From assembly GCF_900141855.1 (NCBI RefSeq), contig NZ_FQYU01000013.1:1-64000 (forward strand): a DNA stretch of 64,000 bases, written 5' to 3'. Below the pieces are notes generated by a model. The model saw only the letters and a program-made list of their open reading frames with translations, did not search any database and had not been told where the DNA came from. Both the position numbers and the translations under genes were made by a program. This DNA comes from Pseudozobellia thermophila. Lineage in GTDB: Bacteria; Bacteroidota; Bacteroidia; Flavobacteriales; Flavobacteriaceae. Below are positions 57,967-64,000 of this stretch, one piece after another; within the stretch, counting starts at the first letter, position 1; each line of letters starts with the position of its first letter.

Positions 57967-58686
57967 ATGAACAAAGAGGTAGAACTACAAGATTTAGGGC
58001 TAAAGGACTATAAGGAAACTTGGGACTATCAGGAAGCCTTGTTCAAGGCCATTGTCGATACCAAAATTCGCAATAGAAGGGAAAACGCACAGCTGACGAC
58101 GGCCAACCACTTTTTGTTCGTCGAGCACCCCCATGTCTACACCTTGGGCAAGAGCGGAAACCGCGCCAATCTTTTGGTAGGCGAGGAAGAGCTTGCTACC
58201 AAGGGGGCCAAATTCTATAAGATAAATAGGGGAGGGGATATTACCTACCACGGTCCCGGGCAGATTGTGGGATACCCCATTCTAGATCTTGAAAATTTCT
58301 TTACCGACATACACAAATACCTCCGTTTGCTGGAAGAGATGGTCATTTTGACTTTGGCGGAATATGGATTGAAAGCGGAGCGTTCAAAGGGAGAGACCGG
58401 GGTTTGGTTGGATGTGGGCACCCCATTCGCCCGAAAAATATGTGCCATGGGCGTACGGGCCAGCCGTTGGGTGACCATGCACGGTTTTGCCTTGAACGTC
58501 AATGCAGACTTAGGGTATTTCGATTTGATGATTCCCTGTGGCATAAAGGATAAGGCCGTAACTTCTTTAAATGTAGAATTAGGAAAACAAGAAGTTGACC
58601 TGAACGAAGTAAAAGAAAAGTTGCTGAAACATTTCGAAGTTCTTTTCGAAGCGGAAATAATAGAACAAGAAAAAACCTCGGCGTGA
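57967..58686 (+). CDS. lipB: Octanoyltransferase LipB
   Basis: LipB moves an octanoyl group from acyl carrier protein to lipoyl domains in lipoate synthesis. The family pattern is complete: HVYTLGKSG near 56-64, RGGDITYHGPGQIVGYPI at 88-105, and the active-site Cys191 (IPCGIKDKAVTSL) with Lys157 (RKICAMGV). Length of 239 is normal. The last codons, ending KTSA and the TGA, lie inside a terminator hairpin, so the stop codon sits in the loop. It is divergent in function from its neighbours and has a possible own promoter at 57955. Confidence 0.96.
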   Translation: MNKEVELQDLGLKDYKETWDYQEALFKAIVDTKIRNRRENAQLTTANHFLFVEHPHVYTLGKSGNRANLLVGEEELATKGAKFYKINRGGDITYHGPGQIVGYPILDLENFFTDIHKYLRLLEEMVILTLAEYGLKAERSKGETGVWLDVGTPFARKICAMGVRASRWVTMHGFALNVNADLGYFDLMIPCGIKDKAVTSLNVELGKQEVDLNEVKEKLLKHFEVLFEAEIIEQEKTSA

Positions 58687-58698
58687 GCCGAGGTTTTT
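58671..58698. terminator. Terminator shared by lipB and the first collagen-like gene
   Basis: Arms AAAAACCTCGGC and GCCGAGGTTTTT pair perfectly over 12 bp around a GTGA tetraloop. The loop contains the lipB stop codon. A/T-runs on both sides make it bidirectional, so it also serves the collagen-like gene at 58719. It is nearly the same as the hairpins at 59353, 60121 and 62149. Confidence 0.9.
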
Positions 58699-58718: not shown

Positions 58719-59288
58719 TTAGTGCTCAAGACCAAAATATTCCATAGCTTCCTCGTAAGTCATTTTTTTAATGTTTTCCCTTTCTGTTTTTCCGGATAGA
58801 TTGCCTTCAACAAGAATGAATCTAAAGTCTAATATTTGTGAAAAAGTGGATTCTACAACGAGGGACCCAACATTGATATAATTAATATCCATAAGAACTT
58901 CGCGGGAAATGATTATGGGCATGCTTTCCCATTTATTGCTTTCCGCAGGAATTTTGGCATATCCTAAAACGAATCCCGTATCAAATATTTTTTGTGTTAG
59001 TTCGGGTATGGCAAAGTTGTTGTCACCACCGGAAATAAGTATATCGTCAAATATGACCGAAACAACATTGGCATTGCCATCTTCTCCATCTTCTCCATCT
59101 TCTCCGTCGTCACCGGCCGGCCCTTGGGGACCTTCAGGCCCTTGTTCGCCTTGAATGCCCTGTTCGCCTTGAATACCTTGTTCCCCTTGCGGTCCTGCGG
59201 GTCCAACATCCCCGTCCTTTGAACAGGAAGTAATTAGTGCGGTAATACTCAAAAAAGTCATGAGTATCATTTTCAGTGTAGTTTTCAT
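58719..59288 (-). CDS. Collagen-like lipoprotein 1
   Basis: The 189-residue lipoprotein has lipobox ITSC (Cys22) followed by SKDGD and about 16 Gly-x-y triplets (GPAGPQGEQGIQGEQGIQGE and so on), ending with three GED repeats. The C-terminal domain of about 115 residues ends in KKMTYEEAMEYFGLEH, a motif shared with the next two genes. It is anchored to the membrane, probably at the cell surface, with a collagen-like stalk. A two-part promoter-like element lies 29 nt upstream. It is the member with the longest triplet run in the array. Function is unknown. Confidence 0.88.
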   Translation of the reverse strand: MKTTLKMILMTFLSITALITSCSKDGDVGPAGPQGEQGIQGEQGIQGEQGPEGPQGPAGDDGEDGEDGEDGNANVVSVIFDDILISGGDNNFAIPELTQKIFDTGFVLGYAKIPAESNKWESMPIIISREVLMDINYINVGSLVVESTFSQILDFRFILVEGNLSGKTERENIKKMTYEEAMEYFGLEH

Positions 59289-59310: not shown

Positions 59311-59342
59311 ATTTTTATGTTGTGGCTATGCCAAGGTTAACA
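59311..59342 (-). promoter_or_regulatory. Shared promoter-like element, site A (collagen-like 1)
   Basis: The minus strand has TGTTAACC (59335-59342), exactly 15 nt, then CATAAAAAT (59311-59319). The same order and spacing occurs before five consecutive genes. The CAT begins 29 nt from the start codon. The pattern resembles an ECF-sigma promoter with an AAC-containing -35 element. Confidence 0.7.
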
Positions 59343-59352
59343 TAAGGCACAA

Positions 59353-59384
59353 AAAAAACCTCGGTGTAGGCCGAGGTTTTTTAT
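59353..59384 (-). terminator. Terminator of collagen-like gene 2
   Basis: Arms AACCTCGG and CCGAGGTT around TGTAGG, with A- and T-runs on both sides. It is nearly the same as the hairpins at 58671, 60121 and 62149. It begins 18 nt after the gene-2 stop. Confidence 0.85.
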
Positions 59385-59401
59385 TTTTGTTAAAAAGGAC
59401 C

Positions 59402-60049
59402 TTAGTATTCCAAACCAAAATACTGTATAACCTCTTCATAGGTCATCTTTTGAATGGTTTTTTTGGAAAGGTCTTTTGAGACAAGTTGCCCACCTGGAAT
59501 AAATATAATTCGAAAGAACCTATTGTCAACATGGTAAATATCCGTCAACCACGTTGCTCTTGTATAACCATAGACTGACGGATCATTTTGAACGTCTATG
59601 GTAATGTCAATACTTGTTGGTTCCATTCTGTAGGCCACTTCCCAAATATGCACTCCATTATTGTCATTTCTTGGTACGGACATAATATTGGTAGGTCTGA
59701 TAGGGGTGTTTCCCAAAGCGGTGGAGGGGACCCAGCCCTCATAGACAACAACGAACCCTCCATTATCTATAAATTCCCGATCGTAAAATCCATAAGATTT
59801 TTTGTTTAAGTAAAGAAAGTTACTTCTCGGGGTGGGATCTTCGAAATTGAACCAGTCGGTGTACATTAAATTTACCCCGCCATCTTCACCAGCTGGGCCT
59901 TGCTCTCCTTGGGGTCCCTGTTCTCCTTGGGGTCCTTGCGGCCCCATGGGGCCTACATCGCCTTCCTTTGAACAAGAAATGTTCAGGAAAACGATACCTA
60001 GCATTAAAAACAGTGTGCTCTTGATGGTAGTTTTCATAATTGTTTTCAT
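59402..60049 (-). CDS. Collagen-like lipoprotein 2
   Basis: The protein has 211-215 residues, a lipobox NISC and the run [20 protein letters not shown] with about ten triplets. The C-terminal domain ends in [16 protein letters not shown] and contains FRIIFIPGG, both shared with its neighbours. Two in-frame start codons, at 60049 and 60037, come from a 12-bp tandem duplication. The inner one places the lipid Cys at position 22 as in the paralogues; the outer one fits the usual distance from the promoter element. It is a surface lipoprotein by inference. Confidence 0.88.
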
Positions 60050-60053
60050 AATT
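60030..60053 (-). repeat. 12-bp tandem duplication over the start codon
   Basis: The minus strand has AATTATGAAAAC twice in tandem (60042-60053 and 60030-60041), which gives two in-frame ATG codons four codons apart. Confidence 0.85.
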
Positions 60054-60080
60054 ATGTTATTTATTTACTGATTTGTATCC

Positions 60081-60111
60081 GATTAATGTTCGGTAAAAAC
60101 AGAGGTTAACA
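60081..60111 (-). promoter_or_regulatory. Shared promoter-like element, site B (collagen-like 2)
   Basis: TGTTAACC on the minus strand (60104-60111), 15 nt, then CATTAATC (60081-60088). Spacing is identical to the other four sites. The CAT begins 37 nt from the outer start codon. Confidence 0.7.
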
Positions 60112-60120
60112 TTCGGGCAT

Positions 60121-60150
60121 AAAAAAACCTCGGTGTTGGCCGAGGTTTTT
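60121..60150 (-). terminator. Terminator of collagen-like gene 3
   Basis: AACCTCGG and CCGAGGTT arms flank TGTTGG with an A-run before and a T-run after. It starts 17 nt past the stop of the gene at 60167 and copies the hairpins at 58671 and 59353. Confidence 0.85.
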
Positions 60151-60166
60151 GTAGATAGGGCATGGC

Positions 60167-60778
60167 TCAATAGTCAAGACCAAGGTAGTCCATCACTTCT
60201 TGGTAGCTCATCTTATCAAAGTTGGGCCCCTGTGATTTTCCGGTAGTCGAACTGGAAGGTATTACCACGTAGCGAAACCTGTCGTAAGGGCTAACGCCGT
60301 CGTGTATATCATTGTTTTCGGTAATGTTGATTTGGATGTTTCCTTCGGAAATGTAGGCTTTGTAAACGGCGATTTGCGTATCGCCCAAGACATAGTGCAT
60401 AACCGTAATCGGGAATTGCGCTACTTTGTCCGTAGGCCATATGCTTTCGACATAACCGTTTAATTTGCCATAAACGATTACCGTTCCTTCTTCGACTATA
60501 TCGGAAGTAATCTCGGGGGCCGCCCTGTTTCCGTTAAAGTGGGGAATTCCGTTGACCAGGGTTTTTTCAAAGGATAACGAGAACCATTCAGAGGCGATTA
60601 CATTGGCGTTGCCGTCTTCACCGGCCGGTCCTTGGGGTCCTTGGGGTCCTTCTTCTCCTTGAATGCCCTGTTCCCCTTGCGGTCCTATGGGGCCGACATC
60701 CCCGTCTTTTGAACAGGAAGTGGTCAGTAGGCCGATGCTCATAAACATGCAGAATAAAAATCGTAATGTGGTTTTCAT
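60167..60778 (-). CDS. Collagen-like lipoprotein 3
   Basis: The 203-residue lipoprotein has lipobox TTSC (Cys22) and SKDGDVGPIGPQGEQGIQGE with about eleven triplets. The C-terminal domain carries SPYDRFRYVVIPSS and ends in DKMSYQEVMDYLGLDY, the shared ending of three paralogues. The central part (residues about 65-170) differs much more between paralogues than the ends do. It has its own promoter-like element and terminator. It is probably exposed at the cell surface, but ligand and function are unknown. Confidence 0.88.
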   Translation of the reverse strand: MKTTLRFLFCMFMSIGLLTTSCSKDGDVGPIGPQGEQGIQGEEGPQGPQGPAGEDGNANVIASEWFSLSFEKTLVNGIPHFNGNRAAPEITSDIVEEGTVIVYGKLNGYVESIWPTDKVAQFPITVMHYVLGDTQIAVYKAYISEGNIQINITENNDIHDGVSPYDRFRYVVIPSSSTTGKSQGPNFDKMSYQEVMDYLGLDY

Positions 60779-60806
60779 AATGTTTAATATTTAAAATTTG
60801 TTTGCC

Positions 60807-60837
60807 CTTTTATGGTATGCGTTTCAAAAGGTTAACA
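60807..60837 (-). promoter_or_regulatory. Shared promoter-like element, site C (collagen-like 3)
   Basis: TGTTAACC on the minus strand (60830-60837), 15 nt, then CATAAAAG (60807-60814). The downstream stretch CATAAAAGGGCAAACA is identical to site D. The CAT begins 34 nt from the start codon. Confidence 0.7.
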
Positions 60838-60891
60838 CTTGAATCTAAAATCAGGAATAACAGTAGGGCTGCCCATAGTAAGAGCAATGGG

Positions 60892-62085
60892 TTATTGATA
60901 GAAATGGGTTGGGGTAATGATCAAATGCGGATAGGCTGTTTGATCTAGTTCCAGTTCCCATACCAATGTCTTGGCCGAAATGTTTATCAAAGCGATATTG
61001 GCTTTGTTCTGGTCGCTTACGGTGTTGAAAAGCAACAGGTGCTTATCGAAGAAATAGTATTTTGTAGAACCGGAATCCCATTCTTCATTGATGGGGTAGG
61101 TAAAGGAATCCAGTTCTTCCCCGCTTAAAATATCGAGGGTTTTGGTGACAATGGCCGAGCTCTCTTCCTTATAGCTAAGATAAACCGTATCGTTCGATAG
61201 GCCGATGGCCGATGGAAATTTTCCCGTATAGGCGTGTTCCCAAATAAGGGATCCGTCGTTTTTGTCAATACTGTAAACGGTCTGGTCACGCGAGTAAAAA
61301 ATAAATTGGTCGCCGCTTTCGTAACCTCCCAAAACATTGGGACTTCCGGTTTCAAAGGTCCAATTCTCGTTCAAGTCGGCATCCAAGGAAACGACACTGT
61401 TGCTCCAGGTCATTACGATTATCGACGACGAGCCACCGATCAATTTTGATATCCTATCGGTAAAGGGTATTCTTTTATCAATATGGCCAGTACCGGGATC
61501 TATGCTCAAAATTTCCTGGGTGCTTGAACCGAGGCTCAATTCGACAACTATTTTGTTTTGGTAAGAGGTAATCTTCCTCACCTCATCGGTCAGCTCAATG
61601 GTCCAATAAACGTCGCCCGTTTCAAGATCTAGCGCATCGAGATAAAAGGAGGAATGATAGGTTGTGGTATTGATTGCCCTATAGCCGATAAAAACTGTAC
61701 TTTGATATACCCAAGTGGCGCCAATTTCATAATACTTGTCGTCGTCTTTTACATAGTCTTTAGACCACATGGACTCTCCGTTAAAAGTACCTTTTCTGAG
61801 TAGTGTTTTGGTTCCGTTATATTCGCCTTGCGTACAGATAAAGGCACCGTCAAATTCATTACAATGAAAAGAATCCAGAGTGGTAAGGGAGTTGATTTGC
61901 CGATAGTCCTTTAAATCCAATTCGGTATAAAGGTTGTCACTACGGATCCAAATGCTTCCTACGATATCGTTTACAGGGTCTTCTATTTCCTCTATTTCTT
62001 CAAAATTTGAATCGTCGTCCTTGTTGCAACTTGCAAAGACCGTAAGCAATAGAAGTATTCCCAAGAGGGATTTAAAGGTTTTCAT
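60892..62085 (-). CDS. PQQ-like beta-propeller lipoprotein
   Basis: The 397-residue lipoprotein has lipobox FASC (Cys20) and then an acidic linker (NKDDDSNFEEIEEIEDP). The rest is a PQQ-type propeller with repeated Asp-Leu-Glu-Thr-Gly-x-x-x-Trp patterns (LDLETGDVYWTIEL, IDKNDGSLIWEHAY, INISAKTLVWELEL). No collagen-like run is present, so it differs from its four neighbours. It shares their promoter-like element, lying between collagen-like genes 3 and 4, and so probably their regulation. Similar propellers (BamB type) serve as protein-binding scaffolds. Its function here is not known. Confidence 0.88.
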   Translation of the reverse strand: MKTFKSLLGILLLLTVFASCNKDDDSNFEEIEEIEDPVNDIVGSIWIRSDNLYTELDLKDYRQINSLTTLDSFHCNEFDGAFICTQGEYNGTKTLLRKGTFNGESMWSKDYVKDDDKYYEIGATWVYQSTVFIGYRAINTTTYHSSFYLDALDLETGDVYWTIELTDEVRKITSYQNKIVVELSLGSSTQEILSIDPGTGHIDKRIPFTDRISKLIGGSSSIIVMTWSNSVVSLDADLNENWTFETGSPNVLGGYESGDQFIFYSRDQTVYSIDKNDGSLIWEHAYTGKFPSAIGLSNDTVYLSYKEESSAIVTKTLDILSGEELDSFTYPINEEWDSGSTKYYFFDKHLLLFNTVSDQNKANIALINISAKTLVWELELDQTAYPHLIITPTHFYQ

Positions 62086-62108
62086 AATAATTGTAATTTG
62101 TGTTTGCC

Positions 62109-62139
62109 CTTTTATGTTGTGGCTTTGTCAAGGTTAACA
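62109..62139 (-). promoter_or_regulatory. Shared promoter-like element, site D (PQQ propeller)
   Basis: TGTTAACC on the minus strand (62132-62139), 15 nt, then CATAAAAG (62109-62116). The 15-nt spacer is nearly identical to that of site A. The CAT begins 29 nt from the start codon. Confidence 0.7.
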
Positions 62140-62148
62140 TCGAACCAT

Positions 62149-62178
62149 AAAAAAACCTCGGTGTAGGCCGAGGTTTTT
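62149..62178 (-). terminator. Terminator of collagen-like gene 4
   Basis: AACCTCGG and CCGAGGTT arms flank TGTAGG, with A- and T-runs. It begins 16 nt past the stop of the gene at 62194. It repeats the hairpins at 58671, 59353 and 60121. Confidence 0.85.
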
Positions 62179-62193
62179 GTCCATTTGAGTTTT

Positions 62194-62760
62194 TTAATAA
62201 GTTTCTTTGGCAATTAGTTTTCCGCCGTACCCACCTGGGTCTAGAAAAACTCCGTTTGAGGTGCCGGAAGGAGTGGTTTGGACATATACTTGTATTTCAT
62301 GGGTTCCGGCAGGTAAATCATCAAAAACATCAAAAACTGACAGAAAATCTATTGTATTGCTAGAAGTAATGGCAGCAAAACTTTGCAATGAACCAACCTC
62401 GCCATTTATTCTAGTAGATACTTTAATCCCATTAGCCCCGGAGAAAGTTCCGGAACCGACCCTCGAATTCAGTATGACCTCGATTCTAGTGTCGTCAAAT
62501 TCTTTTTCAATAGTTAAAATGGGGCCAATGGGGGCCGGTGTTGTCGTAGCGTCCACCGATGAGGAATTTAACCTGGAACGTTCGAAATAATTTGCGGTGG
62601 GCGCCGGGTCACCTTGTGGTCCTTCCGGTCCTTGCGGGCCCTGCTCTCCCTGTGGTCCTTCAGGGCCTATGGGGCCTACGTCACCTTCTTTGGTACAAGA
62701 AGTGTTCAATAAAATGATACCTAAAAGCAAAAACAATGTACTCTTGATTGTAGTTTTCAT
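62194..62760 (-). CDS. Collagen-like lipoprotein 4, divergent C-terminus
   Basis: The 188-residue lipoprotein has lipobox NTSC (Cys22) and [20 protein letters not shown] with nine triplets. The signal peptide is nearly identical to that of collagen-like 2 ([11 protein letters not shown]). The C-terminal domain has no YFGLEY-type ending and instead reads AGTHEIQVYVQTTPSGTSNG and then FLDPGGYGGKLIAKETY, a beta-sandwich look. It therefore joins the shared N-terminal module to a different end domain. It shares the promoter-like element and the terminator of the array. Function is unknown. Confidence 0.88.
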   Translation of the reverse strand: MKTTIKSTLFLLLGIILLNTSCTKEGDVGPIGPEGPQGEQGPQGPEGPQGDPAPTANYFERSRLNSSSVDATTTPAPIGPILTIEKEFDDTRIEVILNSRVGSGTFSGANGIKVSTRINGEVGSLQSFAAITSSNTIDFLSVFDVFDDLPAGTHEIQVYVQTTPSGTSNGVFLDPGGYGGKLIAKETY

Positions 62761-62789
62761 ATGTATTATACTATTTAATTAATTGCATT

Positions 62790-62820
62790 CATTAATGGCT
62801 GGGGAAAGAAAGGGTTAACA
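62790..62820 (-). promoter_or_regulatory. Shared promoter-like element, site E (collagen-like 4)
   Basis: TGTTAACC on the minus strand (62813-62820), 15 nt, then CATTAATG (62790-62797). The CAT begins 35 nt from the start codon. It is the fifth site of the set. Confidence 0.7.
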
Positions 62821-62852: not shown

Positions 62853-64000
62853 TCAGGGCGTATAGCCCACTACGGCCGAGTTGGCGGGAAAGGGAACCCC
62901 TCCTGGGCCTTCATCGGAGAAGGTGACGATGGCCATGACCAGTTGTGGGCCGTTGCGCCGTAAGCTTCCGGCAATCCAGGATATGATGCCCGATTTATTG
63001 GTTATGGCACCTTCAAAAAGTCCGTTGTTGACCGAACTGATCTGTGCCTCGAGTTGGTTGTCAGTGTCAATGGCATTGGTCTCCAAATCGAGGTAGAGGG
63101 TGCCGAGGCCCCTACCTGTTTCGTCGAACACGATACTGGTGGCCCGTTGTTGGCCTGTTCTGGGCTGGTCGACAAAACCTATTAACTTTTTGCCCACGAC
63201 TTCCGATAGGCTTATGTTTTGTTGCTGTCCTCCGTAGATGCCTCCGTTTCCCGCGCCAAAATCGATCATGAACATGCCCGAGGGAGTGGTCTGCCCAAGA
63301 CCTATCCACGTGGGGCCGTCATTGATTTCGAGGGTGCCCGAGTCGCAGGTGGCACTTCCGGGAATGCTCATGGGGCCATCCGTTGTACAGGGGGCCAATG
63401 GATCAAGGCAGTCAAGGCTTTTTTGATTTCCGCCGAAGGTAAAGCCGCCCCCGGTTTCCGAAATGGTAAGCGACCCGTATGCGGGTCGGGTGCGTACGTC
63501 GTATACGCCTTGGGGCGGGATCCTTACATAGTTGTAGGTGCCTGCCAGAGTTCCGCAATCGCTGCGGTCGACACCGTTTATTATGGGCCCCGACAAGCTT
63601 CCGGCCGGTTGGGCGAAAAGTGACATTCCCGGTATTTCTGCGGCGTAGAAGAAGCCCGAACCATCCGAAGGGTAGGCTGCATCGGCGGGGGTGGTGGTTT
63701 CCAAAACCATTTTTAGAAAACCCGAAGGCAGTTGCGAGAAGGTTCCCCTGAAGGCCAGGTCGTCCGACGGGTCGGTTTCCGTGCCATGGTCCCAGGTGCC
63801 TGTCCAGGTCATTGCGGTGTGGTCGAGGTCAAACGTCCAGATGTCACCCGGACTTTGAGTAGCCGTATAGGCCCGTATTTCGGTAGGTTCCTCATTAAAT
63901 CCGTTTTTGTCTTCCGAAACCTGGTCTTTTTCACAGGCCGTCGTAAAGGACAAGAGGGCCATGGCCCAGATCCATTTTTTTTTCCAAAATTTTTGGTATC
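62853..64000 (-). CDS. Secreted lipoprotein of unknown function, 5' end cut
   Basis: The reading frame continues to the right edge of the window, so the start is missing. The last upstream codons, QKFWKKKWIWAMALLSFTTAC, look like a lipoprotein signal peptide with lipobox TTAC, so only a few residues should be lost. The rest, about 365 residues, is rich in Gly, Thr and Ser, with cysteines in DCGTLAGTYNYV, SLDCLDPLAPCTTD and SATCDSG. Such a composition is common for beta-rich extracellular proteins. I do not recognise a family. It is not a collagen-like protein. The ATG at 63962 is internal to the signal peptide. Confidence 0.8.
   Translation of the reverse strand, partial: YQKFWKKKWIWAMALLSFTTACEKDQVSEDKNGFNEEPTEIRAYTATQSPGDIWTFDLDHTAMTWTGTWDHGTETDPSDDLAFRGTFSQLPSGFLKMVLETTTPADAAYPSDGSGFFYAAEIPGMSLFAQPAGSLSGPIINGVDRSDCGTLAGTYNYVRIPPQGVYDVRTRPAYGSLTISETGGGFTFGGNQKSLDCLDPLAPCTTDGPMSIPGSATCDSGTLEINDGPTWIGLGQTTPSGMFMIDFGAGNGGIYGGQQQNISLSEVVGKKLIGFVDQPRTGQQRATSIVFDETGRGLGTLYLDLETNAIDTDNQLEAQISSVNNGLFEGAITNKSGIISWIAGSLRRNGPQLVMAIVTFSDEGPGGVPFPANSAVVGYTP

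Follow-up and report, generated by a model that had tools for sequence, protein, structure and literature searches.

Which regulator reads the two-part element TGTTAACC-N15-CATWAA that recurs in front of neighbouring lipoprotein genes in the genome (5.04 Mb) of Pseudozobellia thermophila? The window analysed here is a 64,000-nt stretch of one contig (C29:1-64000), towards the end of which a preliminary description had placed five minus-strand copies of the element before five consecutive genes. All five were found as exact matches, with low-end coordinates 2-3 nt away from those first reported and with 31-39 nt, rather than the reported 29-37 nt, between the C of CAT and the ATG. The elements and the genes of the cluster within the window are the following.

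59314 to 59342, minus strand: putative promoter element TGTTAACC-N15-CATAAA, exact, 25 nt from the ATG of the collagen-like lipoprotein gene 58719-59288
60083 to 60111, minus strand: putative promoter element TGTTAACC-N15-CATTAA, exact, 33 nt from the ATG of the collagen-like lipoprotein gene 59402-60049
60809 to 60837, minus strand: putative promoter element TGTTAACC-N15-CATAAA, exact, 30 nt from the ATG of the collagen-like lipoprotein gene 60167-60778
62111 to 62139, minus strand: putative promoter element TGTTAACC-N15-CATAAA, exact, 25 nt from the ATG of the propeller lipoprotein gene 60892-62085
62792 to 62820, minus strand: putative promoter element TGTTAACC-N15-CATTAA, exact, 31 nt from the ATG of the collagen-like lipoprotein gene 62194-62760
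58719 to 59288, minus strand: ORF for a collagen-like lipoprotein, 189 aa (Pfam Collagen, 2.7e-9, 37.1 bits, passing the cut-off)
59402 to 60049, minus strand: ORF for a collagen-like lipoprotein, 215 aa (Pfam Collagen, 4.7e-4, under the cut-off; Gly-x-y repeats visible in the sequence)
60167 to 60778, minus strand: ORF for a collagen-like lipoprotein, 203 aa (Pfam Collagen, 8.7e-6, under the cut-off; Gly-x-y repeats visible in the sequence)
60892 to 62085, minus strand: ORF for a PQQ-type beta-propeller lipoprotein, 397 aa (Pfam PQQ_2, 2.5e-8)
62194 to 62760, minus strand: ORF for a collagen-like lipoprotein, 188 aa (Pfam Collagen, 3.8e-4, under the cut-off; Gly-x-y repeats visible in the sequence)
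62853 to 63998, minus strand: ORF for an exported protein of the same cluster, open at the window end, with its exact site outside the window at contig 64091-64119

The products of the five genes behind these elements, four collagen-like proteins with Gly-x-y repeats and one propeller, all carry a lipoprotein-type signal peptide at the N-terminus. Beyond the five sites, the window contained no further matches at 0 or 1 mismatch; at up to two mismatches, 6 matches were found against a shuffle mean of 1.17 and a shuffle maximum of 4. The spacers had been described as differing in sequence, which is correct for the set, but those of the sites at 59314 and 62111 are identical at 13 of 15 positions. 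These two near-identical promoters (59314-59342 and 62111-62139) adjoin unrelated genes, one collagen-like and one propeller, and their similarity suggests promoter copying or recombination inside the cluster. Near-identical terminator hairpins (ACCTCGG...CCGAGGTTTTTT) end cluster genes at 58670-58694, 59353-59377, 60122-60146 and 62150-62174, and three of the four are immediately followed downstream by a promoter element. The cluster's first gene (62853-63998 plus L031:7932-8057) apparently changes frame within its signal-peptide region, at an A9 run; in a Maribacter relative (L101) the frame is continuous, and the split may reflect assembly error, decay or phase variation.

Genome-wide counts were obtained by pattern searches with reversed-pattern controls. 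The whole genome contains 8 exact matches to TGTTAACC-N15-CATWAA and none to the reversed control. In the scan proposed by the preliminary description, which set coding regions against upstream positions, every one of the 8 exact sites precedes an open frame, at a distance of 18-34 nt, and the pattern thereby withstands the refutation set there. The relaxed pattern TGTTAACC-N15/16-YAYWRA gave 14 matches (control, 2), 9 of which fall within the 13.3 kb of C29:59314-72574; among the five outside this cluster, at least one (C25:957548) lies inside a long ORF. Matches with two mismatches were discarded as noise, the genome holding 54 at up to two mismatches versus 130 for the reversed pattern. The cluster extends beyond the window, with sites at contig positions 64091, 64531, 64687 and 72545. 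Behind a one-mismatch site, we noticed a minus-strand frame for a 31-aa single-helix membrane peptide (METYKKLETTKRIL..., L031:8410-8505, corresponding to contig 64409-64504), and similar peptides of 30-33 aa trail the motif in several Zobellia, Euzebyella, Kriegella and Aurantibacter loci.

Inside the site cluster, 0.7 kb beyond the window end and 2 kb from the five genes, lies a gene for an extracytoplasmic function (ECF) sigma factor (contig 64717-65286; L031:8718-9287). Its 189-aa product matches TIGR02937 over residues 21-183 with 56 bits (cut-off 42.9) and Pfam Sigma70_r2 with 33.5 bits (cut-off 24), region 4 having no separate Pfam detection, and it passed no narrower NCBIfam cut-off among the models listed. 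SigW is the best solved relative of the family profile. After a 4-nt gap, the sigma gene is followed by a gene for a 245-aa tetratricopeptide repeat (TPR) protein with one membrane helix and then by a TPR-CHAT gene (923 aa) on the opposite strand. In 67-69 of 72 loci, these three genes are conserved as neighbours, the gap between the first two ranges from -8 to +8 nt where measured, and the membrane helix is present in 69 of 69 TPR proteins. The structural model of the TPR protein (pLDDT 85.5, pTM 0.58) consists of N-terminal helices, the membrane helix and the TPR domain. Neither fold nor Pfam searches detected an anti-sigma domain, Foldseek matching only the TPR part and Pfam giving only TPR and a weak DUF3379; the gene order, topology and conservation indicate that this protein is probably the anti-sigma factor. 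The third protein contains a CHAT domain (Pfam, 7.6e-53) and a signal peptide visible in the sequence; of 65 CHAT proteins, 62 have the catalytic motifs (His and Cys) and 57, by a crude test, a C-terminal membrane helix. PADLOC returned weak matches only, BovA for the CHAT protein and a subtilase model for the subtilase described below.

As to the elements themselves, ECF promoters are described as having AAC in the -35 element and, as a typical feature, a CGT-type -10 element (PMC8103513). The AAC of TGTTAACC is conserved across all aligned sites, whereas the -10 here is CATWAA rather than CGT; since the CGT -10 has been dropped from the stricter ECF definition, CATWAA does not exclude ECF membership.

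The motif follows the sigma factor across genomes. Among 118 relatives and the source genome, two or more exact sites were present only in G000, G001, G037 and G049, and the other 115 had 0 or 1. With a threshold of at least two exact sites, set after the data were seen, these are exactly the genomes with a close orthologue of the sigma factor, defined by at least 50% identity over the whole protein (4 of 4, versus 0 of 115 without it). We also retrieved 68 loci from GTDB genomes by the sigma factor alone, the motif being no part of the search; they come from Maribacter, Zobellia, Arenibacter, Bizionia, Lacinutrix, Xanthomarina, Aquimarina, Mesonia and others. These loci (1.28 Mb) contain 186 exact sites versus 0 for the reversed controls, and 79 versus 4 with one mismatch, although the loci share descent and the counts are not independent events. 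The spacer is 15 nt (186 sites) or 16 nt (43 sites) long, each other spacing from 8 to 25 nt giving 0-2 sites. Twenty whole genomes yielded 132 motif sites versus 14 control matches. Upstream of more distant ECF sigma genes (L183-L200), a pair GGTTACCTTT ... GTATTAA/GTATAAA was seen by eye in many cases, and is perhaps a general ECF promoter style in the class.

The sites outside the sigma gene itself are positioned as promoters would be: 205 of 262 (78%) precede an ORF of 100 aa or more, at 15-45 nt from its ATG, a placement shared by 5.3% of positions drawn at random from these loci. The median gap between the motif end and the target start codon is 28 nt, and G is enriched 4 nt past the -10 box. 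Collagen-like lipoproteins (57 sites, 42 loci) and an OmpA-family protein (32 loci) form the largest target groups, followed by several lipoprotein families and a subtilase. The source genome has an N16 site at C29:72545 that heads a minus-strand row of genes, for the OmpA-like protein, a 232-aa protein, the subtilase and a CHAT protein, which would form one transcript.

We conclude, with a probability of roughly 0.88, that the five elements are promoters of a single ECF sigma factor, the one encoded at contig 64717-65286, which is presumably held by the TPR protein and serves a largely local regulon of exported proteins. The promoter would consist of TGTTAACC as -35 element and CATWAA as -10 element, with a spacer of 15-16 nt between them. 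The membrane-anchored TPR protein, whose gene comes directly after that of the sigma factor, would hold the sigma factor, which, once freed, would turn on the collagen-like and propeller lipoproteins, the 31-aa membrane peptide and the OmpA-like/subtilase/TPR-CHAT row. Direct promoter binding by the neighbouring sigma factor and its control by the TPR protein are what we infer from this arrangement; it is more speculative that the TPR-CHAT protein cleaves the anti-sigma and that the sigma factor limits itself through an element at its own start codon. The preliminary description had envisaged a dedicated surface-lipoprotein regulon under a specific sigma factor or activator, and the ECF sigma gene within the cluster, together with the tracking of the motif with this gene across genomes, bears it out, with a sigma factor strongly favoured over an activator as the reader of the motif. 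The targets reach beyond the collagen-like and propeller proteins proposed at that stage, to the OmpA-like protein, the subtilase and the 31-aa membrane peptide.

The sigma gene carries a copy of the motif as well, and the geometry of this self-site is unlike that of an ordinary autoactivated promoter. In 57 of 68 loci, the distance between the end of this copy and the sigma start codon is -1 to +1 nt, both boxes being retained while the spacers have diverged. The copy is immediately preceded by an A-tract and by a TAAATTAG-like box resembling the flavobacterial housekeeping -7 box TAnnTTTG; this pattern, composed after inspection of the sigma sites, occurs in 46 of 57 sigma sites versus 5 of 261 targets. 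The flavobacterial -7 box is reported to span -12 to -5 (PMC9723704), so that the housekeeping start would fall a few nucleotides before TGTTAACC. When the position of the G enriched in targets is transferred to the sigma gene, it falls just past the ATG, and the next in-frame ATG lies past codon 40 in 54 of 57 cases, with TTG or GTG codons earlier in many. The predicted start inside the ORF would point to self-limitation rather than ordinary autoactivation: a transcript from the self-site, unless leaderless, would probably not encode the sigma factor but would carry the TPR-protein gene. The effect may be occlusion, an anti-sigma-only mRNA or leaderless autoactivation. More distant sigma factors of the class have similar elements at variable distances, several of which, by eye, abut the start codon.

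Extended to the whole circuit, self-limitation would mean that the active sigma factor makes its inhibitor and not itself. Transcripts from the self-site would be without the sigma start codon and with the downstream anti-sigma gene, polymerase bound there would block the housekeeping promoter just upstream, and the response would start when the anti-sigma is cleaved by the TPR-CHAT protein, acting as a caspase-like protease in the periplasm and in some species placed behind a promoter that the sigma factor controls. We offer this full scheme tentatively, as a possibility with the odds against it.

A different account of the self-site, compatible with the main explanation, takes it as a normal autoactivating promoter giving a leaderless sigma mRNA and hence positive feedback. 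Transcription would then have to start 0-1 nt past the -10 box, which to our knowledge is nearer than known promoters permit, and the G found 4 nt after the -10 box of targets would again land just past the sigma ATG. Both boxes are nonetheless conserved at the sigma gene, most ECF sigma factors are reported to be positively autoregulated (PMC8103513), and flavobacteria have leaderless mRNAs, put at 5.5% in F. psychrophilum (PMC9723704); we regard this account, too, as possible but doubtful.

The regulon as a whole could instead be read mainly by a second sigma factor, since a paralogous trio of ECF sigma, TPR membrane protein and CHAT protein is encoded at C25:707-711 kb (L033:7269-11537, corresponding to C25:707268-711536). 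The start codon of the paralogous sigma is overlapped by an element TGTTTACC-N15-CACTAATG, and a divergent TGTTGACC-N15-TATTAA lies close by. An exact motif site at C25:713300, 1.9 kb from this sigma gene, makes cross-recognition possible, and G001 is arranged alike. The element at the start codon of the paralogue is, however, of the TGTTTAC type, and G041, which has the paralogue without a close orthologue of the sigma factor, contains no exact site. The motif could also be the site of a conventional activator or repressor, but two boxes at a rigid spacing of 15 or 16 nt, 20-40 nt before start codons, resemble a promoter and not an operator, and we noticed no gene for another DNA-binding regulator in the shared gene neighbourhood. 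Either reader, the paralogue at C25:711 kb or a conventional regulator, is improbable. Still less credible is a mere recent tandem duplication of a terminator-promoter-gene unit without regulatory meaning, which would suit the four paralogous genes of the five, the near-identical terminators before several of them and the two spacers alike at 13 of 15 positions, but not the divergence of the remaining spacers around unchanged boxes, the unrelated genes behind the element (propeller, lipocalin-like, OMP barrel, OmpA-like, sigma) or its conservation over many genera. Chance and duplication are both ruled out by the cross-species site counts against controls, the spacing and the unrelated target genes.

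In general type, the system assigned here to the neighbouring sigma factor is recognisable as an ECF regulon; the promoter code and the set of targets are its own, and its self-site is unusual. ECF (group IV) sigma factors with a co-encoded membrane anti-sigma are exemplified by SigW-RsiW of B. subtilis. The present system shares with SigW-RsiW an ECF sigma, probably of two domains, the AAC-containing -35 element, the adjacent gene for a single-pass membrane protein and an envelope regulon, but differs in having CATWAA in place of a CGT-type -10, a C-terminal TPR domain on the putative anti-sigma, the self-site against the start codon and collagen-like targets. The SM6 motif of F. psychrophilum, described as comprising ECF-type promoters with a CGT -10 box at type IX secretion genes (PMC9723704), comes from a member of the same bacterial family, and one of its promoters is reported to stand before an ECF sigma/anti-sigma gene pair; unlike SM6 as described there, the motif here has CAT and precedes collagen-like lipoproteins.

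The CHAT gene invites a comparison with CRISPR-associated CASP/Craspase (Cas7-11, Csx29, Csx30 and CASP-sigma), where the TPR-CHAT protease Csx29 is reported to cleave Csx30, an inhibitor of an ECF-like sigma factor (PMC10028731). The likeness is one of layout only, a TPR-CHAT gene beside an ECF-type sigma and its proposed inhibitor; by this parallel, it suggests that the CHAT protein may cleave the anti-sigma. In contrast to CASP, no Cas7-11 or CRISPR array was noticed among the neighbour genes read, the CHAT protein bears a signal peptide and, in most cases, a C-terminal membrane helix, and the part of the inhibitor is putatively taken by a membrane TPR protein. A literature search, mainly at the level of titles and abstracts and not establishing absence, found no report of the motif or of the ECF-CHAT pair in Bacteroidota.

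For a system that occurs in dozens of related species, across many marine Flavobacteriaceae genera, these results provide a promoter code, a sigma factor with its probable inhibitor, and a list of targets. They also show an ECF sigma gene with a caspase-like CHAT neighbour outside any CRISPR setting noticed, and the copy of the element that abuts the sigma start codon represents a testable departure from the usual autoactivating design.
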